DNA from: Vulcanisaeta moutnovskia 768-28
GTDB lineage: Archaea > Thermoproteota > Thermoprotei > Thermoproteales > Thermocladiaceae
Length of the DNA stretch: 64,000 nt
Direction of reading: 5' to 3'
Assembly: GCF_000190315.1 (NCBI RefSeq)
Contig: NC_015151.1
Span: 2,148,509 to 2,212,508 of the forward strand
The notes below the pieces were generated by a model, which saw only the letters and a list, made by a program, of their open reading frames with translations, was not told where the DNA came from and did no database searches. A program made the translations under genes and the position numbers. Below, piece after piece: positions 50,773 through 61,749 of this stretch (positions are counted from its first letter, which is position 1; each line of letters begins with the position of its first letter).

Positions 50773-51198
50773 ATGCCAATACTTAGTATTGAATTCACTG
50801 TGAGTAGGGAGGTAGATCCAAGGCGCCTTGATAGGGTTTGGCAGGTACTTAGTGACGTTGAGGCCATGCCTAGGTACTGGAGGGGTCATAGAGAGGTGGA
50901 AATAGTGAGTAGGGATGGTAATGCGTATCTCGTCAAAATCAAGTTCGCATTCTCAGGCCCAAATAACAGAGGCATTGCAAGGATTGAGATACATAATGCT
51001 GATAGGCTCGTGCTTATTAATTACCTGGAAGGACCAATAAGGGGTTATGTAAGGAACTACATAAATGGAAACTTACTAATTAGCCAATGGAGCATTAGGA
51101 TAAGCCCACTCTTTCTAATAATAAAGCCCTGGATAAGGAAGCACTTTATGAATGGGGCAGGCAATGCGTTGGTGCGAATATTGAACGAGGAAACTTGA
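50773..51198 (+). CDS. SRPBCC (START-like) family protein
   Basis: 141 residues, alpha/beta helix-grip fold: EFTVSREVDPRRLDRVWQVL then EAMPRYWRGHREVEIVS, and a C-terminal helix HFMNGAGNALVRILN. These proteins bind hydrophobic small molecules in a cavity. The YWRG segment resembles polyketide cyclase/dehydrase-like members. Start ATG at 50773 after a short leader. No more specific function can be given. Confidence 0.75.
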   Translation: MPILSIEFTVSREVDPRRLDRVWQVLSDVEAMPRYWRGHREVEIVSRDGNAYLVKIKFAFSGPNNRGIARIEIHNADRLVLINYLEGPIRGYVRNYINGNLLISQWSIRISPLFLIIKPWIRKHFMNGAGNALVRILNEET

Positions 51199-51393
51199 TA
51201 AGGTAGGTGATTGATTATTCTGAGAATATATCATTCATGATTTTAATTAATATCAGGGACGATTAATAGGGCTTTGTGATAATGATTATTGATAAAGCAC
51301 CTAATTTGCTCCTTATAAACCTTAATTAATAATGTATACACCAAGACATAATCAAGGACTAACTTAATAAATAATTTGTCAATAGGTGGATAG

Positions 51394-52494
51394 GTGGATA
51401 GGGGCTTCATTATTGCGTGGAGTGTAACCTTTCTACAGCTGGCTGTGAGGCTGGGTTGGGGAGTAGTTAGTGTGACTATGGCTGAGTTGTTGAGACTTAA
51501 CCCGGTGCAGATAGGGCTTGTTCTGACCCTGTTCTATATTGGTTATATGACTTCTTCAATACCCTGGGGGGCACTCATTGATAGGTTTGGGCCGAGTAAA
51601 GCAATACTCGTTTCCGGAACCTTATCCAGTGCCGTGATTTTAATGTTATTCCTGGCAAACACCTTCACGCAAATCTTACTGCTTTACCTAATGGCTGGTT
51701 TCCTAACTGCTGGTTTATTTCCATCAGCGATGAAGATAGCAAGTTACTCAACTCAGGAGAAGGTGCACAGTAGGGTTGCGATGCTGGAGAGTGCGGCACC
51801 GATAGTCCTAATTGCATTGAGTGCTGCATCTCCATTAATAATTACCCACTGGAGAACCTTTTATCTGGCAATATTCCTTGCACTACTCACGGCATCTCTA
51901 TCCTCAATAGGCCTCAAAGTAGTCAGTAGCAAATACGCCAGGCCTAAAAGCGTGTTAATGAATTTAAGAGTGGCGAAGGCTGTAGCGATAAGGGCAGGGG
52001 AATTATGGGGATCCTGGGGAACATCGAGTTGGCTCCTGCCATTCTTGGTCCTCTATGATGGGATCAAGGGAATACTACCCGTATTACTCTTCTTCATATA
52101 CTCCCTGGGGCAGTTGATCTCCATATTCTTGGCATCAGTACTACCTAAGTCAATAGGTGAGAGGAAAGTTATTGAGATCTCACTAACGGCCTTTATAGTC
52201 TGTGACTTCTTAGCGGCAATCCTTCTCAAGGACACACTATTACTCTTCCCGATCTTTCTTGCACTTGGAATTAGCTCGTTTTTGTATAGACCACCAACTG
52301 ATGTATTGATAATAAAGATTATGGGAAACGAATATGCAGGTACGTCAATGGGCTACGCAAATGCCGTATCCCAGTTGGGCTCTATGGTGGCTCCAATATT
52401 CGTAGGCTTCGCAATAAGCATAAGCCCAATACTTGGCGTTTTAAGCTTAGCACTAGGGCCCTTAATATCATTAATAATCCTCTACATGATTTAA
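51394..52494 (+). CDS. MFS transporter, 12 helices
   Basis: 366 residues, about 12 helices. Motif A-like GALIDRFGPSKAIL lies between helices 2 and 3. It resembles nitrate/oxalate-type or general MFS carriers and is short, lacking large loops. The GTG at 51394 is followed by a Trp-rich helix. No ligand can be read. It stands alone on the plus strand. Confidence 0.8.
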   Translation: MDRGFIIAWSVTFLQLAVRLGWGVVSVTMAELLRLNPVQIGLVLTLFYIGYMTSSIPWGALIDRFGPSKAILVSGTLSSAVILMLFLANTFTQILLLYLMAGFLTAGLFPSAMKIASYSTQEKVHSRVAMLESAAPIVLIALSAASPLIITHWRTFYLAIFLALLTASLSSIGLKVVSSKYARPKSVLMNLRVAKAVAIRAGELWGSWGTSSWLLPFLVLYDGIKGILPVLLFFIYSLGQLISIFLASVLPKSIGERKVIEISLTAFIVCDFLAAILLKDTLLLFPIFLALGISSFLYRPPTDVLIIKIMGNEYAGTSMGYANAVSQLGSMVAPIFVGFAISISPILGVLSLALGPLISLIILYMI

Positions 52495-53208: not shown

Positions 53209-55575
53209 TTAATATTTTCGCCTGACTACCGATGCTAATTCATAACCGAGCATGGCAGACACAGCACCATTAAATACATAAATTAGCACTGGTAATGCGG
53301 CAATTACTATCGCTGGAATACCCACCAAACTTGATAGGATACCTAGCAACTTTATTGATTTATTAAGGTGAAAACCTAGGTAAAATACGTACTCGGCGAT
53401 TATCATTAGGAACATTGCCGTGGAACCCATAATTAAGTTATTCCTCATTCTATACTTTCTAAGCGTCATTACTATAGAAAACACAAGCACTACTATAAAG
53501 GGTAACCACCAATTCACTAATTGAGTAAGTACTGAAATACCAGCTGCCAAGAATGAATATTGTAACGTTCTAAATCTCATCATATATGTTAGGAGAGAGC
53601 CTATGAATAAGGTAATCACTATGTAGAACATCCACGCTAGTGACTCGATTATTGTTAGTATGAGGGGCCCTGGTCTTAGTACCAAGGTTGGGTTTGAACA
53701 GTTTAATAGGAATATTAATGGTAAGTACTCGTGATGCTCGTATATTGGTACGTAGTTGTCATAATACGGACTTAACGGATCCTCACTCTCACCGCCTGGG
53801 AATACGCCGTAGGCTATTGGTGGAGATTGATTGAATATGGCTATCCAAGTGAATGACTGACCACCAGTCATGTTTAACCCGCTTGAATCCCACATCGTGT
53901 TTGCATCGCCGCCCTGCTGGAATGGACCCTCAGAGAATTGTGACAGTGATGTTAATGATTCGAGGTAATGACCGTGGAACCTACCCCACTCCCAATTACT
54001 TATGTTGTTGCCGGCAATACTCGTTAAGTAGTTGATTGTTTGATTTAGCGCCAGTACCATGACCATGTATGCATTCCTCCTTTCGCCAGTTAGTGGATTG
54101 TTGAACCAGGGTGAGTACGGATCATTAATTGTTAAGTTAGCCACAAACGCCACCAACTTACTACTCATACTCACTGGGAATGCTGACGTGTTTATTCCGT
54201 AGTACTCAAGCCATGGATAAACAACGTCCTTAACGTAATTATGAACAAAGAAGTAATAAATGGTTGCAGCCGAGGAGTTAGCGCTCATCCAACCATTCCA
54301 TGAAGATAGCAAGTAATAGACCTGCCTCATCGTCGTATTATTCCAACCATACATCCTAATTGCGATTAATAACGAAGGCACTAGGTACTTGGTTGAGTAG
54401 TCCAAGTCATTCCACTGAACATACATTAAGTAACCTGGAGTAACAGTATTCGTCTGATTAAGGAGATATGCCTGGGAATACGCCCTGAAACCCACCGAGA
54501 AGAAGTCCCAAGATGGGCCTATGTAGAATGGATATGCATAACCAATTGGTCTCTGGTTTGATGCAACTATGTAATGAGACGATGGGTTACAGGTCTGTGG
54601 TATTTCATAATAAGGTATGTAACCAATAATAAGTGACCCGTTGATGGCAGGTAATATCATGCCTGGATAACCCCTATTAAACAATGGGTATAGACCAGCA
54701 CTTATTGCGGCTATGTTCCCATAAACATCAGCATACACGAAATTCTGTGGTGGTGAGTACCATAGACTCAGTGCATTCCAGAAGTCTGTGAAATTCCTTG
54801 CCTGCATAATATGCAGTAAAACACCAATATCGTCTGATGGTAAATCACCCGTCCAGTTCATGATAACGTACGTATCTCCATAATGAATTTCTGGACCGAG
54901 TAATGTCCAGTTCACTATGAACCTCACAGAACTACCATTTGGTAGTGGTATGTAGTATATGTACTGTCTGTATGGATAGAAAGCACCGTTTAGGTAATAA
55001 CCATTGGCTGTGGCATTTATGAAGTAGAAATAAGTCATCTGCGCCTGTACATCAGTGAGGGTCCAACCAATGTACTTATTAAACCCTATTATGATGACCG
55101 GCGTACCCGGTATTGAAACTCCATAAACCGTGTAATTAGGATCTATTAACTGAACTTGGAACCAAATCGATGGAAGTGTCGTCGGTAGCACCGGGCCACC
55201 CATGAGGAGTGGGTATTCGGACTTTGTAGATTGAACAGCAATTGCATTACTATGTCCTGGATCACTAGGTAACACATTACTTACTAAGTACATGTATATT
55301 GCAAGTAGGTCCTTCCAATGCTCCTGGGAATACATGATTTGCTGAGGCAACGGACTCCAGTCCTCATTTACGGGGATGTAGGGAATGAATTCCGTACTTA
55401 GGCACTTGTCCTCGTATTCGAGTAATGTTAATAAGCTGCCATTGCCGGGGACATAAAACGTTTGATTAACAGGTGATACGTAGGGATATAATTGGTTAGC
55501 TAGTTCGTAACCCATTGCTCCCGCTAGTGCTGAGAACCTAAGTGGAGTGAATGTGAGTGATAGTCCCTCAACCAT
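53209..55575 (-). CDS. Penicillin acylase-like Ntn hydrolase, 5' end lost
   Basis: 788 residues from the first ATG, but coding similarity continues 54 codons upstream to 55737 (FEAYTEGINDYVSQV, then GYRPSYWIPLDSLY), typical internal penicillin acylase sequence. The N-terminal RDxxGVPHI region is missing because the frame meets a stop at 55738-55740. The Ntn nucleophile appears as Ser109 in GHSNAIAVQ. The C-terminal 130 residues are membrane helices, which is unusual. It hydrolyses amides or acyl-homoserine lactones in other organisms. The gene is probably non-functional as read, or mis-assembled. Confidence 0.8.
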   Translation of the reverse strand: MVEGLSLTFTPLRFSALAGAMGYELANQLYPYVSPVNQTFYVPGNGSLLTLLEYEDKCLSTEFIPYIPVNEDWSPLPQQIMYSQEHWKDLLAIYMYLVSNVLPSDPGHSNAIAVQSTKSEYPLLMGGPVLPTTLPSIWFQVQLIDPNYTVYGVSIPGTPVIIIGFNKYIGWTLTDVQAQMTYFYFINATANGYYLNGAFYPYRQYIYYIPLPNGSSVRFIVNWTLLGPEIHYGDTYVIMNWTGDLPSDDIGVLLHIMQARNFTDFWNALSLWYSPPQNFVYADVYGNIAAISAGLYPLFNRGYPGMILPAINGSLIIGYIPYYEIPQTCNPSSHYIVASNQRPIGYAYPFYIGPSWDFFSVGFRAYSQAYLLNQTNTVTPGYLMYVQWNDLDYSTKYLVPSLLIAIRMYGWNNTTMRQVYYLLSSWNGWMSANSSAATIYYFFVHNYVKDVVYPWLEYYGINTSAFPVSMSSKLVAFVANLTINDPYSPWFNNPLTGERRNAYMVMVLALNQTINYLTSIAGNNISNWEWGRFHGHYLESLTSLSQFSEGPFQQGGDANTMWDSSGLNMTGGQSFTWIAIFNQSPPIAYGVFPGGESEDPLSPYYDNYVPIYEHHEYLPLIFLLNCSNPTLVLRPGPLILTIIESLAWMFYIVITLFIGSLLTYMMRFRTLQYSFLAAGISVLTQLVNWWLPFIVVLVFSIVMTLRKYRMRNNLIMGSTAMFLMIIAEYVFYLGFHLNKSIKLLGILSSLVGIPAIVIAALPVLIYVFNGAVSAMLGYELASVVRRKY

Positions 55576-55740
55576 GTACTGTTGGACATACAGCGAATCA
55601 AGAGGAATCCAATAACTTGGCCTATAACCAATTAACTTGTAATATATTGAGTATTGATTCGTAGTTAATACCTGAGATACGTAATCATTAATTCCCTCCG
55701 TATACGCCTCAAATATGGAATATGCATACTTATCAATTTA

Positions 55741-57387
55741 CCCATTAAAGAATATACCTATAAAGATCTTTACAGTAGAGTTAATGCGCTTGGTTCGTTT
55801 CTTGATGAATTGAATGTTAAGCGTGCCGAGAAACCTCGTGAGTTTGGTGGTAAGATTGCCGTTATGGATTGGAATACCGTTAGATACTTGGAGCTTATGT
55901 TCGGTGTTCCTATGTATGGTGCGACATTATTTACAGTAAACATTAGGCTAGCGCCCGAGGAAATACTCTATACAATGGGTATCGTTAAGCCTGAGGCTCT
56001 TTTCATTCATATAGACTTCCTACCACTGCTTAAATCCATACTTACTAATATTAACAGTCTTAAGCATATTATAATTATGGATGATGCAAAGACAGTCGGT
56101 ACTGGTGAAACTCCTAGGATTAAGGTTGAGGTTCCAAGTAATGTTAGGGTTTATGAGTATGATGATGTTGTTGGTCGTGGTAAATCTTATTACGATTGGC
56201 CTGATGTTGAGGAGCATGTTATTGCAGAGATTTTCTTCACATCAGGGACTACGGGTAGGCCTAAGGCTGTGTATCACATGCATAGGCAAGTCGTCATAGG
56301 CACAATGCAGTTACTGATTGCTGAGGAGCAACCACCAATCCTAGTCAATAATAAGGACTACCAATTAATTACCACTCCTATGTTCCATATACTTGCATGG
56401 CTTCACCCATATGAATCGTTCCTCATTGGAGCTCCTATGGTATTACCTGGCAGGTATGACTGGCGTTACATAACCAGGCTGCTTGTTGATAAGCTAATTC
56501 CTGATGCAAGGAAGCTAAATGGTAGGGTTATTGCTAAGGGCGTACCATCAATGCTAATATCAATAATCGAGAGCACCAAGTCCATGGGTATTAGTAATTT
56601 ACACGGTTTCTCCTATGGTTACGGAGGTCAGGCATTACCTGTTGCGGTGTATGAGGAGGCTAAGAAGATGGGTATTGAAATATTGACAGGTTATGGCCCA
56701 TCCGAGACACTTACGGCAATAACCAGATCGTTCATGGTGCCTAGATATTACTTGAAGGAGGGTTATGACTTTGAGAAGTTTAGAGATCACCAGGTGGTTG
56801 GGAATTCCTTAGGTACTCCTGTACCATTGACGCTTGTTAAGGTGATTGATGAGAATGGTAGGGAGCTGCCCTGGGATAGTAAAACGATTGGTAGACTCGT
56901 ATTCTATTCACCAACTATAACCAGAGAGTATTTTGGTGATACTGAGAAGACTGAGAGGGCTTGGAGGTTTAGGTACTTCGATGTTGATGATATGGTCGTA
57001 ATCGATGAGCATGGATGTGTATTTTTTATTGATAGGGAGAAGGATGCAGTTAAGAGTGGTGGTGAGTGGATACCATCGTCAAGGTTGGAGATGTTTATAT
57101 CAACGCATCCAGCGGTTAGTGAGGTTGCTGTTATTGGAGTTCCCCATCCAAGATGGATTGAAAGGCCTATAGCCGTTGTCGCACTTAAGCCTGAGTATGT
57201 TGGTATGGTCTCTGAGGATGAACTGAGGAATTACTTACAGAGAGAGTTTGTTAATAAGGGGTTAATGCCAAAGTGGTGGATACCTGATAAGTTCGTATTT
57301 ATAAAAACCGAGGAGCTACCAAGAACTGGCACAGCAAAGATAGACAAGAAGGTATTAAGGGAGAGGTATAAGAACATGTTTATGTAG
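55741..57387 (+). CDS. AMP-dependent acyl-CoA ligase, 5' end lost
   Basis: Sequence similarity begins at 55741: PIKEYTYKDLYSRVNALGSF continues into AVMDWNTVRYLELMFGVPMYG. This normally follows about 40-50 N-terminal residues, which are absent; the first possible start is a TTG at 55810. The rest is intact: IFFTSGTTGRPK, GYGPSET, and RDKDAVKSGGEWIP-like (REKDAVKSGGEWIPSS) adenylation motifs, ending GTAKIDKKVL. It resembles medium- or long-chain fatty acid-CoA ligases. Truncated at the same junction as the divergent acylase. Confidence 0.8.
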   Translation, partial: PIKEYTYKDLYSRVNALGSFLDELNVKRAEKPREFGGKIAVMDWNTVRYLELMFGVPMYGATLFTVNIRLAPEEILYTMGIVKPEALFIHIDFLPLLKSILTNINSLKHIIIMDDAKTVGTGETPRIKVEVPSNVRVYEYDDVVGRGKSYYDWPDVEEHVIAEIFFTSGTTGRPKAVYHMHRQVVIGTMQLLIAEEQPPILVNNKDYQLITTPMFHILAWLHPYESFLIGAPMVLPGRYDWRYITRLLVDKLIPDARKLNGRVIAKGVPSMLISIIESTKSMGISNLHGFSYGYGGQALPVAVYEEAKKMGIEILTGYGPSETLTAITRSFMVPRYYLKEGYDFEKFRDHQVVGNSLGTPVPLTLVKVIDENGRELPWDSKTIGRLVFYSPTITREYFGDTEKTERAWRFRYFDVDDMVVIDEHGCVFFIDREKDAVKSGGEWIPSSRLEMFISTHPAVSEVAVIGVPHPRWIERPIAVVALKPEYVGMVSEDELRNYLQREFVNKGLMPKWWIPDKFVFIKTEELPRTGTAKIDKKVLRERYKNMFM

Positions 57388-57434: not shown

Positions 57435-58913
57435 TTACCACCACTCCAGTAGCTTCTTTATGTCGTCGATTTTCGCCAGGTCTGCGTTATATAGTGCTGC
57501 TGTCCTGCTTATGTCATAGTTATACGACCTGTATAGTTCTATTACGCTTGCCTCTATTGACCCTTCCGCATGTATCATACCTACGGATAGTAATGCCCCG
57601 AGGGCTGATAGGAATTCGCGGGCTACTTGAAATAGTCGAATTCTTGTTCTTGCATCAGTACCTTTCTTACCGACTAAGTACTTAACCATGTACTTCTCCT
57701 CAGTTGGATTACTTAATTCGCTGGTTGATGGTATATCGGCGAGTAGGCCCCCTGCTACGTCAATCATGTCCTTAACAGCGTCTAGGTACTTGGCATTGGC
57801 CGTTAATTTACCCACGTTTGTGTATATCGGGTTTGGTATGCATATACCCGTGTTTGGATCCCTGATGCACTTCTCGGCCGAGGCTATGGCGCTGGATACC
57901 AAGTACTCCTTATACGTTATTATATCGACAATATCCCTCCTAATGTGGGATGCTGTCTCAACATCGTTATACTCAGCAAAGAGCTTTGCGTAACCAAGTA
58001 TTATATCGGCCAGGGCAGCCCTATAGGAAATTGCGGTGAATCTGTGATAAAGTGCAAAGGTTAGTCCGTAGGGTGCCGCGAACTCGTACTCACCTGCCAG
58101 GAACACCCTATCATTCGGAACCTTGACATTATCGAATATGGTCAGCGTCTCAACCTCCACATTAGTCTTACCCATTGGAAACTCATCACCAAGCATATTA
58201 ATCTCAACCTCCCTCAGTGGCCTAGGTATTAGAACCGTGCCCTTGGCATTGACCGGTAGCGCAAAGGCAACAGCATAATCAGCGTCCTCCTTAACCATAT
58301 TCCTATAGGGCAGGACAATAAGCTCATTAGCCGCGATGGACTGGGTCGTATGCACCTTAGCACCCCTGACAATGATGCCGTCAGAATCCCTACCAACAAT
58401 ATGAACATATAGGTCTGAGTCCTCCTGTTGATGAGGCCTAAGCATCCTGTCGCCCTTAACGTCCGTCTGGGCAACGGCTATTGTAACATCATCCTTAACA
58501 ACACGTTCATAATACCTCATAACCCTATCAAAGTAATTAGTACCCCTGATCCTATCGAGTTGCTTAGATGCAATCATAAGTCCAAACAACGCATCTGAAC
58601 CAATAGTCTTCATAATATTAAACATACCCCTACCAAGCAATGTCGTATTATAAATGAGCTTAAATCTCTCAATAAGATCCTCAGGACTCCTAGGTACTTT
58701 GTAAAACCTACTTATCGTACCATACTGCGGATCATCAAACGTCAAATACTTCTTAAGCTCAGGGTCCATCTGCCATCTGTAAAGCTCAGCTGCATGGTTA
58801 ATCGCAGCCCTTAAAATCTCGTGTGTCGTTACGTCACTCACAAGCTTACCTCTATAATAAATGACCCTACCATCACGCAGACTATTAACATAATCCTCAA
58901 AGGACCTAACCAT
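57435..58913 (-). CDS. HpaB-type flavin-dependent hydroxylase (4-hydroxyphenylacetate 3-monooxygenase family)
   Basis: 492 residues. The fold and motifs match HpaB/4-hydroxybutyryl-CoA dehydratase: AVAQTDVKGDRMLRP, GIIVRGAKVHTTQSIAANEL, and a C-terminal HAEGSIEASVIELYRSYN. The dehydratase's iron-sulfur cysteines in the N-terminal segment are absent here, so the monooxygenase side is favoured. It uses reduced FAD and O2 to hydroxylate a phenol; the reductase (HpaC) is not in the window. It sits between two CoA ligases. Confidence 0.85.
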   Translation of the reverse strand: MVRSFEDYVNSLRDGRVIYYRGKLVSDVTTHEILRAAINHAAELYRWQMDPELKKYLTFDDPQYGTISRFYKVPRSPEDLIERFKLIYNTTLLGRGMFNIMKTIGSDALFGLMIASKQLDRIRGTNYFDRVMRYYERVVKDDVTIAVAQTDVKGDRMLRPHQQEDSDLYVHIVGRDSDGIIVRGAKVHTTQSIAANELIVLPYRNMVKEDADYAVAFALPVNAKGTVLIPRPLREVEINMLGDEFPMGKTNVEVETLTIFDNVKVPNDRVFLAGEYEFAAPYGLTFALYHRFTAISYRAALADIILGYAKLFAEYNDVETASHIRRDIVDIITYKEYLVSSAIASAEKCIRDPNTGICIPNPIYTNVGKLTANAKYLDAVKDMIDVAGGLLADIPSTSELSNPTEEKYMVKYLVGKKGTDARTRIRLFQVAREFLSALGALLSVGMIHAEGSIEASVIELYRSYNYDISRTAALYNADLAKIDDIKKLLEWW

Positions 58914-59041
58914 ATTCTTAACATTTATGACTAATGATTAATTAGCTTATTTGTTATTAAATTTAAATAGATGCATTGTAATAAATACATATAATATATA
59001 GAGAAGATGTTTATTAATAGCTTTCATATATAAAATAGTTC

Positions 59042-60793
59042 ATGGAATTAATAACAAAACAGATAGGAGATACCGAAGTTCAGCTGGTTCCTGAGAGAGA
59101 TTATGTTTGCGAAATACCTAGTGACAGGGTATGGTATAGGTACTGGCCTCCGAGAATTCCAAGGAGAATGGATTATCCGAAAGTTCCTCTCTTTAATATG
59201 GTTGAGGTATCAGCGGCTAGGTATCCAGATAAGGATGTGATAATTTACTATGGCTTCAGAATAAAATATTCAGAGTTCTGGGACTCAATACTTAGATTTT
59301 CATCGTTTTTGTATAATTTGGGTATTGATAAGGGCGATAGGGTAGCCATTTATATGCCGAATACGCCTCATTGGTTAATATCATTTTTTGGTATACTAAG
59401 GGCTAATGCTATTGCCGTTCCAGTTAATCCATTAGCAGCACCTGACGTGCTTGAGTATATTTTGAGGGAAACTGGGGCTAAGGCTATTATTACGTTATCA
59501 CAATTATTAACTAGGCTACTTAGCATTAAGGATAGGGTTCCATCTCTGAGATATGTAATTGTTGGTAGATATAGGGATTACCTTCCAGAGAAGCTTGAGT
59601 TAAAATTACCGCAATTAATGTTAATGGACCCTGAAGTACCTCAAGGCGTGATTAATTGGAGAGATGCCGTTTCCTTTAATGGTAGTCCACCTCAGGTTAA
59701 GGTTACGTATGAGGACCTTGGCGCAATACCGTATACTTCAGGTACAACAGGAATTCCTAAGGGCGTTATGCATAGTCATGGTACAATGTGGGCATCCGCA
59801 CTAAACGCCGCGGTTTGGTATAATACAGCGCCAAGTGCTATTGTATTAACAGTATTGCCCATATTCCATGTGACGGGGCTCGTGCATTCCGTATTAGTGC
59901 CACTTTACGTTGGTGCAACAATGGTATTAATGACAACTTGGGATAGAGAAAACGCAATAGATGCAATTGAGAAGTATGGAATATCTCACTGGACTAGTAT
60001 ATCAACTATGATCGTTGATTTATTAGCAATGCCTGGCATTGAGAAAAGGAACCTTTCGTCATTGATACTGGCTGGTGGTGGCGGTGCTCCAATGCCTGAG
60101 GCTGTAGCTAAGAGATTTAAGGAGCTCACTGGCCTTGATTACTTAGCAGGTTACGGATTAACTGAAACATTCTCACAAACACACGTTAATCCACCGCATA
60201 GGGTTAAAATTGGCAGTGACTTAGGAATACCGCAGCCCTGCACCGACGCCTTAGTGATAGATCCAGATACGAAGGAAGTTTTACCACAGGGTAAGACGGG
60301 AGAGCTCATAATTAGGGGTCCTAATGTGTTTAAAGGCTATTGGAAGAAGCCGGAGGAGACTAAGGAGGCCTTTATAGAGGTTGATGGAAAGCTTTACTTT
60401 AGAACTGGGGATGTGACTTATATGGATGATGAGGGCTACTTCTTCTATGTTGATAGGATTAAGAGAATGATTAATAGGGCTGGGTATAAGGTTTGGCCAT
60501 ATAGAGTCGAGAATATTCTATACATGCATCCAGCCATTCTTGAGGTAGCGGTAGTAGCAATACCAGATTTAAGGGTTGGCGAAGAGGTTAAGGCATACGT
60601 TGTGCTCAAGCCAGAGTATAAGGGCAAAATTAAGCCTGAAGATATAATACAATGGGCAAAGGAGAGGATGTCGGCATATGAATATCCAAGGATTGTGGAG
60701 TTTGTTGATTCATTACCTAAGACAGCCACTGGTAAAATAGACTGGAAAATACTTCAGGAGCAAGAAAGGAAGAAGGTTGGTGGTAAGCAATGA
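59042..60793 (+). CDS. AMP-dependent acyl-CoA synthetase, complete
   Basis: 583 residues. Adenylation motifs: YTSGTTGIPKGVMHSHG (from about 231), GYGLTET (A4/A5 region) and YFRTGDVTYMDDEGYF (A7/A8), with the catalytic lysine in TATGKIDWKIL at the end. It activates a carboxylic acid to an acyl-CoA. Substrate class unknown; the N-terminal YWPPRIPRRMDYPKV segment is typical of medium- or long-chain fatty acid ligases. Its stop overlaps the lactonase start by 4 nt (ATGA), so the two are translationally coupled. Confidence 0.92.
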   Translation: MELITKQIGDTEVQLVPERDYVCEIPSDRVWYRYWPPRIPRRMDYPKVPLFNMVEVSAARYPDKDVIIYYGFRIKYSEFWDSILRFSSFLYNLGIDKGDRVAIYMPNTPHWLISFFGILRANAIAVPVNPLAAPDVLEYILRETGAKAIITLSQLLTRLLSIKDRVPSLRYVIVGRYRDYLPEKLELKLPQLMLMDPEVPQGVINWRDAVSFNGSPPQVKVTYEDLGAIPYTSGTTGIPKGVMHSHGTMWASALNAAVWYNTAPSAIVLTVLPIFHVTGLVHSVLVPLYVGATMVLMTTWDRENAIDAIEKYGISHWTSISTMIVDLLAMPGIEKRNLSSLILAGGGGAPMPEAVAKRFKELTGLDYLAGYGLTETFSQTHVNPPHRVKIGSDLGIPQPCTDALVIDPDTKEVLPQGKTGELIIRGPNVFKGYWKKPEETKEAFIEVDGKLYFRTGDVTYMDDEGYFFYVDRIKRMINRAGYKVWPYRVENILYMHPAILEVAVVAIPDLRVGEEVKAYVVLKPEYKGKIKPEDIIQWAKERMSAYEYPRIVEFVDSLPKTATGKIDWKILQEQERKKVGGKQ

Positions 60794-61749
60794 GTCGTGG
60801 TATGGTCAGGATATCGATTGCTGGAGGAAATGAAATAGACCCTGGTAGTATGGGTTTAACATTATTTCATGAGCATCTTAGACTAATTACTGAAGTTGTT
60901 CGTTGGAATTGGCCTCACCTTTATAATGAGGATGAGGAGCTTAAGCGTGCCATTGACGCTGTTAATGCAGCTAAGAAGTATGGTGTTAAGACTATTATCG
61001 ATCTTACAGTGGCTGGTATAGGATGTGATGTGAGGTTTAATGAGAAGGTTGCTAAGGCCACGGGTGTTAACATAATAATGGGTACCGGATTTTATACGTA
61101 TACGGAAATTCCATTTTACTTTAAGAATAGAGGCATTGATTCTTTAGTCGACGCCTTTGTTCATGACATAACAATAGGTATACAGGGAACAAATACAAGG
61201 GCAGCCTTTGTTAAGGCGGTTATTGACTCATCAGGGCTTACTAAGGATGTGGAAATGGCTATTAGGGCCGCAGCTAAGGCTCACATAAAGACTGATGTGC
61301 CAATAATAACTCATTCCTTTGTTGGCAATAAGTCGAGCCTTGATCTCATAAGGATATTCAAGGAAGAAGGTGTGGACTTGGCAAGGACTGTGATTGGACA
61401 TGTTGGTGATACTGATGATATTTCATTCATTGAGCAAATATTGAGGGAAGGTGCATTTATTGGCCTCGATAGGTTCGGTCTTGATATATACCTACCTCTC
61501 GATAAGAGGGTAAAGACCGCAATAGAGCTTATTAAGAGGGGATGGATTGATCAATTATTGTTATCGCATGATTATTGCCCAACTATTGATTGGTATCCAC
61601 CAGAGGTTGTGAGGAGTACGGTGCCTGATTGGACAATGACCTTAATATTTGAGAAGGTAATACCGAGAATGAGAAGTGAGGGTATAACTGAGGAACAAAT
61701 AAACAGAGTACTAATAGATAATCCAAGAAGGTTATTTACTGGTAGGTAG
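60790..61749 (+). CDS. Phosphotriesterase-like lactonase (PLL)
   Basis: 319 residues. All metal ligands are visible: H27-x-H29 (FHEHL), carboxylated K142 (VKAVIDSSG), H175 (THSF), H204 (IGHVGD) and D261 (SHDYC). GLDRFGLDIYLP is the PLL loop, separating it from bacterial phosphotriesterases. PLLs from Sulfolobus and Vulcanisaeta hydrolyse gamma/delta-lactones and acyl-homoserine lactones, with weak paraoxonase activity (established). Coupling to the upstream CoA ligase suggests that hydroxy acids released from lactones are activated directly. Confidence 0.93.
   Translation: MSRGMVRISIAGGNEIDPGSMGLTLFHEHLRLITEVVRWNWPHLYNEDEELKRAIDAVNAAKKYGVKTIIDLTVAGIGCDVRFNEKVAKATGVNIIMGTGFYTYTEIPFYFKNRGIDSLVDAFVHDITIGIQGTNTRAAFVKAVIDSSGLTKDVEMAIRAAAKAHIKTDVPIITHSFVGNKSSLDLIRIFKEEGVDLARTVIGHVGDTDDISFIEQILREGAFIGLDRFGLDIYLPLDKRVKTAIELIKRGWIDQLLLSHDYCPTIDWYPPEVVRSTVPDWTMTLIFEKVIPRMRSEGITEEQINRVLIDNPRRLFTGR

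Follow-up and report, generated by a model that had tools for sequence, protein, structure and literature searches.

Known lactonases and lactone-degrading operons

VmoLac, SsoPox, SisLac and SacPox are archaeal phosphotriesterase-like lactonases of the PLL-A group, and the lactonase encoded in the window (the whole 64,000-nucleotide stretch of Vulcanisaeta moutnovskia DNA analysed here) is VmoLac itself. According to the available part of the structure paper (PMC4323659), VmoLac has lactonase activity with a preference for long-chain gamma- and delta-lactones (kcat/KM values as high as about 10^6), it shares about 52% identity with SsoPox, and its biological role was called uncertain by the authors. 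In bacteria, the lactonase QsdA and the ligase QsdC/FadD of the Rhodococcus erythropolis qsd operon are used for gamma-lactones, and assimilation of gamma-caprolactone is reported to need this operon. The VmoLac gene overlaps an acyl-CoA ligase gene, and a two-gene unit for lactone catabolism is the best explanation of the pair and probably the right one.

The ligase and lactonase genes

The features of the locus are as follows (window positions):

53209–55575: acylase, scoring 32.4 bits against the 950-bit cut-off of the PvdQ NCBIfam equivalog
57435–58913, minus strand: flavoprotein-family gene of the HpaB / 4-hydroxybutyryl-CoA dehydratase superfamily, without Fe-S cysteines
58914–59041: presumed promoter region, the 128 bp between the divergent flavoprotein and ligase genes
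59042–60793, plus strand: AMP-forming acyl-CoA ligase, long-chain fatty acid subfamily PRK08314, 583 aa
60779–60784, plus strand: GGTGGT, possible lactonase ribosome-binding site inside the 3' end of the ligase gene
60790–60793, plus strand: ATGA stop/start overlap, the presumed site of translational coupling
60790–61749, plus strand: phosphotriesterase-like lactonase VmoLac, 319 aa

The 4-nt overlap described in the initial annotation is real, as the ATGA is common to both reading frames. When the ORFs of the window were called mechanically with a minimum length of 100 aa, 2 of the 31 same-strand neighbouring pairs overlapped by 1–12 nt. The ligase and lactonase genes overlap in all six Vulcanisaeta loci with a VmoLac-type lactonase, by 4 nt in the window, L028 and L031 and by 1 nt in L029, L030 and L032, and in each of them GGTG, the archaeal Shine–Dalgarno core, closely precedes the lactonase start. 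Because the two genes overlap and are co-directional, they are likely to share a single transcript. The ligase frame is broken in three of the six Vulcanisaeta genomes (G053, G055 and G056, drafts of 63–81% completeness) and in G056 the lactonase frame is broken too, near its start; these breaks are probably sequencing errors. As the residue numbering in the available part of PMC4323659 begins at Met5 of the window ORF, the true lactonase start may lie 12 nt downstream, leaving a gap of 8 nt. The overlapping ATG of the relatives L030 and L031 sits at this Met5 position.

The window lactonase is identical to PDB 4RDY across 316 residues, matches Pfam PF02126 and belongs to PLL-A by sequence family and bimetal ligands. 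The metal ligands (H, H, K, H, H, D) and several lactone-contact residues are kept in all nine aligned archaeal sequences. The ligase scored 769.6 bits against the NCBIfam model NF006181 of the long-chain fatty acid ligase subfamily (cut-off 705), matches PF00501 and PF13193, and carries YTSGTTGIPKG and a C-terminal GKI, which we take to be ligase motifs. The subfamily name does not settle the substrate, which counts against the lactone-catabolism reading.

Occurrence of the pair in other genomes

The ligase (E ≤ 1e-120) was found in all 15 genomes with a close relative of VmoLac and in none of 13 chosen genomes without the lactonase; matches of 24–45% identity, which represent other phosphotriesterase-family proteins or fragments, were excluded from the count of true lactonases. 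The initial annotation had called for a survey of archaeal neighbourhoods for adjacent CoA ligases, and its refuting condition, that lactonase genes of this kind never stand next to ligase genes elsewhere, does not hold: the pair is adjacent in 13 of the 15 genomes. It lies about 10.1 kb apart in the remaining two. The genes are divergent neighbours in all seven genomes of the SsoPox/SisLac genus (g80), while the separation of some 10 kb characterises both genomes of a further genus (g69). Two g80 lactonases, from G490 and G476, scored 706.8 bits to SisLac (4g2d) and 664 bits to SsoPox (2vc5), and the pairing therefore reaches close relatives of these enzymes.

In a phylum draw of 398 genomes, ligases of at least 53% identity occurred in the 10 lactonase genomes of the draw and in genome G321. 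A ligase match at E ≤ 1e-120 without the lactonase was obtained in 15 genomes of this draw, namely G321 and 14 with more distant ligases (39–41% identity), which counts against the lactone-catabolism reading; the 14 gave no lactonase match at E ≤ 0.001. Twelve of these 14 next-closest ligase loci were taken into a neighbourhood comparison (all but those of G191 and G211). Homologues of beta-oxidation genes lie near the ligase in 11 of the 12, and none of the 12 has a homologue of the lactonase, of the G321 partner protein described below or of the flavoprotein (blastp, 1e-6); lactonase adjacency is thus not a general trait of the ligase family. The ligase tree comprised 12 of the 16 lactonase-linked ligases (all but those of G139, G053, G055 and G056), and in it the G321 branch is long and its placement unsure. 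Among bacteria, a directly adjacent ligase was present at 3 of 12 distinct lactonase loci, which counts against the lactone-catabolism reading. Of 169 plasmid records with a match, 7 from the top of the ranking were inspected. A contig scan gave only 7 loci, its two patterns being narrow.

Linkage by shared ancestry or transfer, without a common pathway, would agree with the restriction of all 15 lactonase genomes to three genera, because of which independent pairing events are few. Chance adjacency to a ligase is also small but above zero, with 13 AMP-binding genes in the V. moutnovskia genome, and is estimated at about 1% per gene if some 2,300 genes are assumed. However, the arrangement varies by genus (overlapping, divergent or 10 kb apart) while co-occurrence is still complete, and in G321 a protein of another fold fills the lactonase slot; we regard this explanation as extremely unlikely. 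Judged from the genome comparison, chance alone does not account for the pairing.

The number of independent lineages with the pairing signal is small, an observation that counts against the lactone-catabolism reading.

Genomic context and predicted lactone catabolism

Genome G321 has no match to the lactonase, and its ligase gene overlaps by 4 nt the gene of a metallo-beta-lactamase-fold protein whose closest relatives are lactonases. This partner has the AiiA/AttM fold signature (PF00753 at 77.8 bits, zinc motif HLHFDH in the translation), and its six top-scoring models are all lactonases, although the best of them, AiiA, gave 82.3 bits against a named-lactonase equivalog cut-off of 375. The slot beside the ligase thus appears to be held by a putative lactonase of another fold. 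In G157, in a cluster annotated in detail, the pair sits with genes for 3-hydroxyacyl-CoA dehydrogenase/enoyl-CoA hydratase, acyl-CoA dehydrogenase, thiolase and a FadR-type repressor. The neighbours of the pair in the window did not include an identified beta-oxidation gene, which counts against the lactone-catabolism reading.

Because of the pairing, the overlap or linkage, the fatty acid context and the slot replacement in G321, the proposal of the initial annotation that lactonase and ligase form one pathway is well supported by comparison, whereas the acylase and thioesterase that it had included drop out as pathway parts. Both are present, as is the flavoprotein that it had named HpaB, but neither that name nor conservation of the acylase and thioesterase beside the pair held. 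No homologue of either was detected in five other Vulcanisaeta stretches (blastp, 1e-6), which are short: one is a 6.9 kb contig, and four reach 4.6–6.2 kb past the flavoprotein, where the thioesterase would come to lie just at their end. However, a conserved MFS gene follows the flavoprotein in L029 and L031, with no acylase, second ligase or thioesterase between. Moreover, the acylase ORF of the window looks cut at its 5' end.

Under the lactone-catabolism reading, hydrophobic gamma- or delta-lactones, which hydroxy acids may form where the habitat is hot and acidic, would enter the cell, and VmoLac would open the ring, yielding a fatty acid with a hydroxyl group at position 4 or 5. From this acid the coupled ligase would make the CoA thioester, thereby also trapping it, and beta-oxidation would then consume the hydroxyacyl-CoA. 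The high kcat/KM of VmoLac on long-chain lactones and the C14 fatty acid in its active site speak for this reading. The divergent flavoprotein may also take part in this route.

Alternatively, the lactonase could be a lipid esterase or lactone detoxifier, with the ligase merely activating ordinary fatty acids. The placement of the ligase within the long-chain fatty acid subfamily, the fatty acid cluster in G157 and the C14 fatty acid bound in the VmoLac active site (PMC4323659, available part) are consistent with this. However, the same part of that source gives VmoLac as inactive on pNP-decanoate and far better on lactones, and the G321 slot is filled by a protein closest to lactonases, which makes this alternative unlikely.

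Quorum quenching, in which acyl-homoserine lactones made by other microbes would be destroyed by the lactonase and their acyl chain recycled by the ligase, is in our view very unlikely. VmoLac does hydrolyse C8–C10 acyl-homoserine lactones, but less well than alkyl lactones, by a factor of about 15 to 500 (computed from values in the available part of PMC4323659). Likewise, the Rhodococcus qsd operon has been described as working in this way, but no chain-releasing acylase is conserved beside the pair.

The divergent flavoprotein-family gene

The flavoprotein-family gene adjoins the ligase gene in all six Vulcanisaeta. Its product scored 154.3 bits against the cut-off of 480.2 of the NCBIfam equivalog for HpaB 4-hydroxyphenylacetate 3-monooxygenase, and 213 bits to 6vjr and 200 bits to 1u8v against 127 bits to the best HpaB. 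By these scores, it is nearer to 4-hydroxybutyryl-CoA dehydratase, and the aromatic hydroxylase name denotes the wrong family. The dehydratase (PDB 1u8v) is, with 6vjr, the closest solved family. The three Cys and one His positions of the dehydratase are presumably its iron–sulphur ligands; the flavoprotein keeps the His position but lacks the Cys positions and the adjacent lysine, so a dehydratase of the Fe-S type is rejected for the window. This comparison used 14 of 17 aligned rows plus a separate reading of L071 and L074, with L091 dropped.

Ligase, lactonase and flavoprotein genes lie together in Vulcanisaeta and within 20 kb in g80, and in G321 the order is ligase, lactonase-like protein, flavoprotein. 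A dedicated archaeal gamma-hydroxyacyl-CoA route, made up of an exchangeable lactonase of either fold, the ligase and the Fe-S-free dehydratase relative, is conceivable though rather doubtful. In such a route the flavoprotein would remove or move the gamma-hydroxyl, so that 4-hydroxy fatty acids could enter beta-oxidation. The findings also hint that proteins which current family models return as aromatic hydroxylases act in acyl-CoA metabolism.

The dehydratase family also bears on a salvage reaction of the 4-hydroxybutyrate cycle, in which heat-formed gamma-butyrolactone would be reopened by the lactonase, the ligase would remake the CoA ester and 4-hydroxybutyryl-CoA dehydratase would continue. 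The cycle serves carbon fixation, and the lactone would come from cyclisation of 4-hydroxybutyrate or of the corresponding CoA ester. Both g69 genomes have, between lactonase and ligase, a dehydratase homologue that contains the Fe-S cysteines (the G151 copy scoring 416 bits to 1u8v, with a semialdehyde-dehydrogenase-family gene nearby), and a relative of this dehydratase adjoins the pair in Vulcanisaeta. This placement of the lactonase, 10 kb from the ligase and near a true-looking dehydratase but outside the FadR cluster, counts against the lactone-catabolism reading. Salvage is nevertheless improbable: in the available part of PMC4323659 short-chain lactones are not hydrolysed by VmoLac and gamma-butyrolactone is absent from its substrate list, V. 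moutnovskia has only two superfamily members at E ≤ 1e-10, both without the cysteines, and the G157 pair sits among fatty acid genes.

Comparison with known systems

The idea of a lactonase–ligase pathway is not new, as the Rhodococcus qsd operon is a bacterial precedent in which the genes of a phosphotriesterase-like lactonase and of a fatty acyl-CoA ligase belong to a single operon. The comparison, made without the QsdA or QsdC sequences, also revealed differences: the qsd operon is bacterial, its lactonase gene comes first and its divergently oriented regulator, QsdR, is of the TetR type. In the window, a scan of 10 neighbouring proteins gave no TetR, and the gene in the divergent position encodes the flavoprotein-family protein. 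The window pair appears to work like qsd, yet we do not name it a qsd operon because a TetR-type sensor gene is missing beside it. The FadR-controlled lipid cluster Saci_1103–Saci_1126 resembles the surroundings of the pair in G157, combining beta-oxidation genes with a FadR-type repressor; unlike in G157, the pair of G151 lies about 1 Mb from the resembling cluster.

In the portions of the archaeal PLL-A literature available to us, each lactonase is treated on its own, as an enzyme that quenches quorum sensing or hydrolyses organophosphates, and a partner ligase is not mentioned. The retention of the two genes together in some heat-loving archaea suggests that these much-studied lactonases may have a nutritional function and not one in disturbing bacterial signalling. 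With the fixed partner ligase, the fatty acid context and the differently folded lactonase-like protein, such a function can be put to a direct test, aided by the existing crystal structure and by the SsoPox and SisLac relatives in archaea for which genetics exists.

Ligase–lactonase pair in Vulcanisaeta

The genome holding the window is a single contig of 2,298,983 bases. The genes concerned are as follows:

57435–58913, − strand: flavoprotein-family gene, divergent to the ligase
59042–60793, + strand: AMP-forming acyl-CoA ligase (ORF call)
60790–61749, + strand: phosphotriesterase-like lactonase (PLL), VmoLac (ORF call); ATGA common to the ligase end and the lactonase start

The 4-nt overlap of ligase stop and lactonase start described in the initial annotation was borne out by this ATGA. 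Overlaps of 1–12 nt occur in 2 of the 31 same-strand neighbouring ORF pairs of the window (ORFs of at least 100 aa). Across 316 residues, the lactonase shows full identity to PDB 4RDY, VmoLac of Vulcanisaeta moutnovskia (PMC4323659). That paper gives the carboxylated lysine the number 238, probably in error for 138: the lysine conserved in the lactonase alignment is residue 142 of the window protein, which corresponds to 138 there.

Among 12 Vulcanisaeta members (the own genome and 11 others), six carry the lactonase at 79–100% identity, four of these loci being from Vulcanisaeta distributa JCM 11216 and Vulcanisaeta sp. JCM 14467, JCM 16159 and UBA163. In all six, the ligase directly precedes the lactonase on the same strand and overlaps it (by 4 nt in the window, L028 and L031 and by 1 nt in L029, L030 and L032), and the flavoprotein-family gene lies divergently on the ligase's other side. 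The lactonases of L030 and L031 lack four N-terminal residues and still start inside the overlap, which is thus retained though the start moves. The ligase frame is broken in the drafts G053, G055 and G056 (completeness 63–81%), as is the lactonase frame in G056. Neither gene was found in the other six members, two of which are 99% and four 54–87% complete; this co-occurrence (6/6 against 0/6) has a hypergeometric probability of 0.001, the genomes not being independent.

Two genes of window 50773–52494, for an SRPBCC-like protein and an MFS transporter, recur next to the pair in L029 and L031 (the transporter at about 86% identity, the SRPBCC-like one recognised by eye). The acylase and thioesterase that had been proposed as pathway members do not recur there. 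The acylase (−) and a second ligase (+) are divergent at 53209–57387, both without N-terminal parts: their Pfam matches start at positions 152 (profile of 675) and 13 to 46 (profile of 384), respectively, and family-like residues continue, by eye, upstream of the called starts. It looks as if a single event might have truncated both 5' ends near 55.7 kb.

Co-occurrence and control ligases

True lactonases (E below 1e-110 in a phylum draw; matches of 24–45% identity, fragments included, were excluded as other phosphotriesterase-family proteins) were present in 10 of 398 phylum genomes, six of Vulcanisaeta and four of family f32. In the order of f32 they were present in 9 of 197 genomes, belonging only to the genera g69 (2) and g80 (7). 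For the g80 members G490 and G476, the lactonase scores 706.8 bits against SisLac (4g2d) and 664 bits against SsoPox (2vc5), and g80 is therefore taken as the SisLac/SsoPox genus.

Among 28 chosen genomes, the ligase (E ≤ 1e-120) was found in all 15 that carry the lactonase and in none of the 13 that lack it. A search of a phylum draw of 398, of the same size and kind as the lactonase draw and taken as the same sample, gave the ligase in 25 genomes, 11 at ≥53% identity and 14 at 39–41%. The former are the ten lactonase genomes and G321; in G321 and the other 14, no lactonase match was present at E ≤ 0.001. The inclusion of all ten lactonase genomes within these 11 of 398 has a hypergeometric probability of about 4e-19, although the genomes are not independent and three genera carry the signal. 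Since the own genome holds 13 AMP-binding genes, chance adjacency to one of them is estimated at about 1%, on the assumption of some 2,300 genes in all.

As a control, 12 of the 14 ligases at 39–41% were examined with their surroundings (14 kb, in one case 9 kb). Beta-oxidation homologues were near 11 of them, while no homologue of the lactonase, the flavoprotein or a 264-aa protein of G321 (described below) was near any of the 12. In the ligase tree, these 12 control ligases are split from the lactonase-linked ligases with 100/100 support. The beta-oxidation context therefore belongs to the wider ligase family, and the lactonase linkage to one clade.

Arrangement in related archaea

ARRANGEMENTS. 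In g80, the ligase and lactonase are head to head in 7/7 genomes, with a gap of 75–85 bp (mechanical ORF starts) and ligases 62–64% identical to the window's; in both g69 genomes they are about 10.1 kb apart. The g80 locus L103 (genome G157) contains:

aquaglyceroporin-family gene, FGGY kinase, FAD oxidoreductase, CoxG protein, ligase, lactonase
FAA hydrolase, two metallo-beta-lactamase-fold genes, 3-hydroxyacyl-CoA dehydrogenase/enoyl-CoA hydratase fusion
acyl-CoA dehydrogenase, second ligase, ChsH2-like protein, thiolase, TetR regulator

This regulator, about 10.5 kb from the lactonase, matches PDB 6EL2 (FadRSa, 336.6 bits), a repressor reported to respond to acyl-CoA and to control a 30-kb cluster of lipid and beta-oxidation genes (PMC6449355). 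The three further g80 genomes in the comparison have homologues at 83–85% in their stretches; the homologue of G151 (74%) is in a region different from that of the G151 lactonase.

In G321 (family f25, within the order of the 197-genome draw), the ligase (53%) shares 4 nt (GTGA) with a gene for a 264-aa metallo-beta-lactamase-fold protein, after which comes the flavoprotein-family gene (59% identity). The best solved relatives of the 264-aa protein are 2r2d (AttM, listed as Zn-dependent hydrolases), AiiA, GcL and 4-pyridoxolactonase, at 37–60 bits over about half its length; the six top-ranked NCBIfam models all describe lactonases, with scores far from their cut-offs, and the protein contains HLHFDH. 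The presence of two unrelated folds in the same coupled slot points to lactone opening as their common function, the second fold being known there from one genome. The G321 flavoprotein-family frame (L101, 6117–7583) has a single in-frame TAG, either an assembly error or real.

The flavoprotein-family gene

The divergent gene, initially annotated as an HpaB hydroxylase, proved nearer to vinylacetyl-CoA isomerase (6vjr, 213 bits) and 4-hydroxybutyryl-CoA dehydratase (1u8v, 200 bits) than to HpaB (127 bits). Proteins of this family presumably bind flavin, and we take Cys99, Cys103, His292, Cys299 and Lys300 to be the residues with roles in 1u8v. The cysteine motifs are missing in 10 of 14 usable alignment rows; the four with them are the g69 gene between lactonase and ligase (both genomes; 416 bits to 1u8v for the G151 copy) and distant copies in G401 and G157. 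FQRC and GGCK were absent from all 19 loci at 49–95% identity to the window copy (the L072 frame being in pieces). In the g80 and g69 copies among them, a single cysteine precedes the first motif by a few residues but does not align with Cys99. This cysteine-poor form lies 11–19 kb from the lactonase in 7/7 g80 genomes. We infer an acyl-CoA substrate for the protein. Metallosphaera sedula is reported to have two candidate dehydratase genes, one of which does the job (PMC7078158), so paralogues are known.

The true-looking dehydratase of G151 (L097, 8871–10388) is accompanied by semialdehyde dehydrogenase and AMP-binding family genes. Elsewhere in the own genome (L108, 645000–664900), another cysteine-free flavoprotein-family gene occurs in a second set, together with a homologue of acyl-CoA dehydrogenase and a ligase at 41% to the second ligase of the window.

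Bacterial loci and comparison with the qsd operon

Twelve distinct bacterial loci with lactonases of 34–51% identity were compared: L047–L049, L060–L066 (7 of 169 plasmid records with a match), and L122 and L123, from three matches in 200 Bacilli-class genomes (the third, L121, repeats the Alicyclobacillus genome of L047 and was left out). An adjacent CoA ligase, as anticipated for other PLL neighbourhoods, occurs in all six Vulcanisaeta with the lactonase, all seven g80 and three of the 12 bacterial loci, being the next gene in Tsukamurella (no gap), Dietzia and L122 (on the same strand, 300 nt downstream). Rhodococcus USK10 has ligase homologues no more than about 4 kb from the lactonase, and Bacillus dakarensis and Roseomonas have beta-oxidation homologues at up to about 5 kb; neither kind was found near the lactonase in L047, L049, L060, L061, L062 and L123 (flanks of only about 1.5 kb in L123). 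In Bacillus dakarensis (L048, 8797–10945), two tandem lactonase genes follow hydroxyacyl-CoA dehydrogenase/enoyl-CoA hydratase homologues.

VmoLac is reported to prefer long-chain gamma- and delta-lactones (kcat/KM to ~10^6), to be weaker on acyl-homoserine lactones (~2x10^3) and to hold a C14 fatty acid, its biological role being called uncertain by its authors (PMC4323659). These substrates, the bound fatty acid and the gene linkage fit a route in which the lactonase would open the lactone ring, the ligase would activate the product with CoA and beta-oxidation would take the CoA ester.

Such a pathway has already been described in a bacterium: the qsd operon of Rhodococcus erythropolis, which combines a phosphotriesterase-like lactonase (QsdA) with a FadD-type ligase (QsdC), is reported as required to assimilate gamma-caprolactone (PMC6262395, PMC6476934, PMC3689677). 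Among the matches listed, titles and abstract openings on the PLL family, SsoPox and the Vulcanisaeta moutnovskia lactonase reported no archaeal lactonase–ligase pairing, though an earlier mention, e.g., by Kallnik et al., is possible. The archaeal pair, which is what appears new here, would be a variant on the qsd-type theme: it seems to work alike, as lactonase plus ligase, but differs in its reversed gene order, the lack of a TetR gene beside the pair, the conserved flavoprotein-family gene and the exchangeable lactonase.
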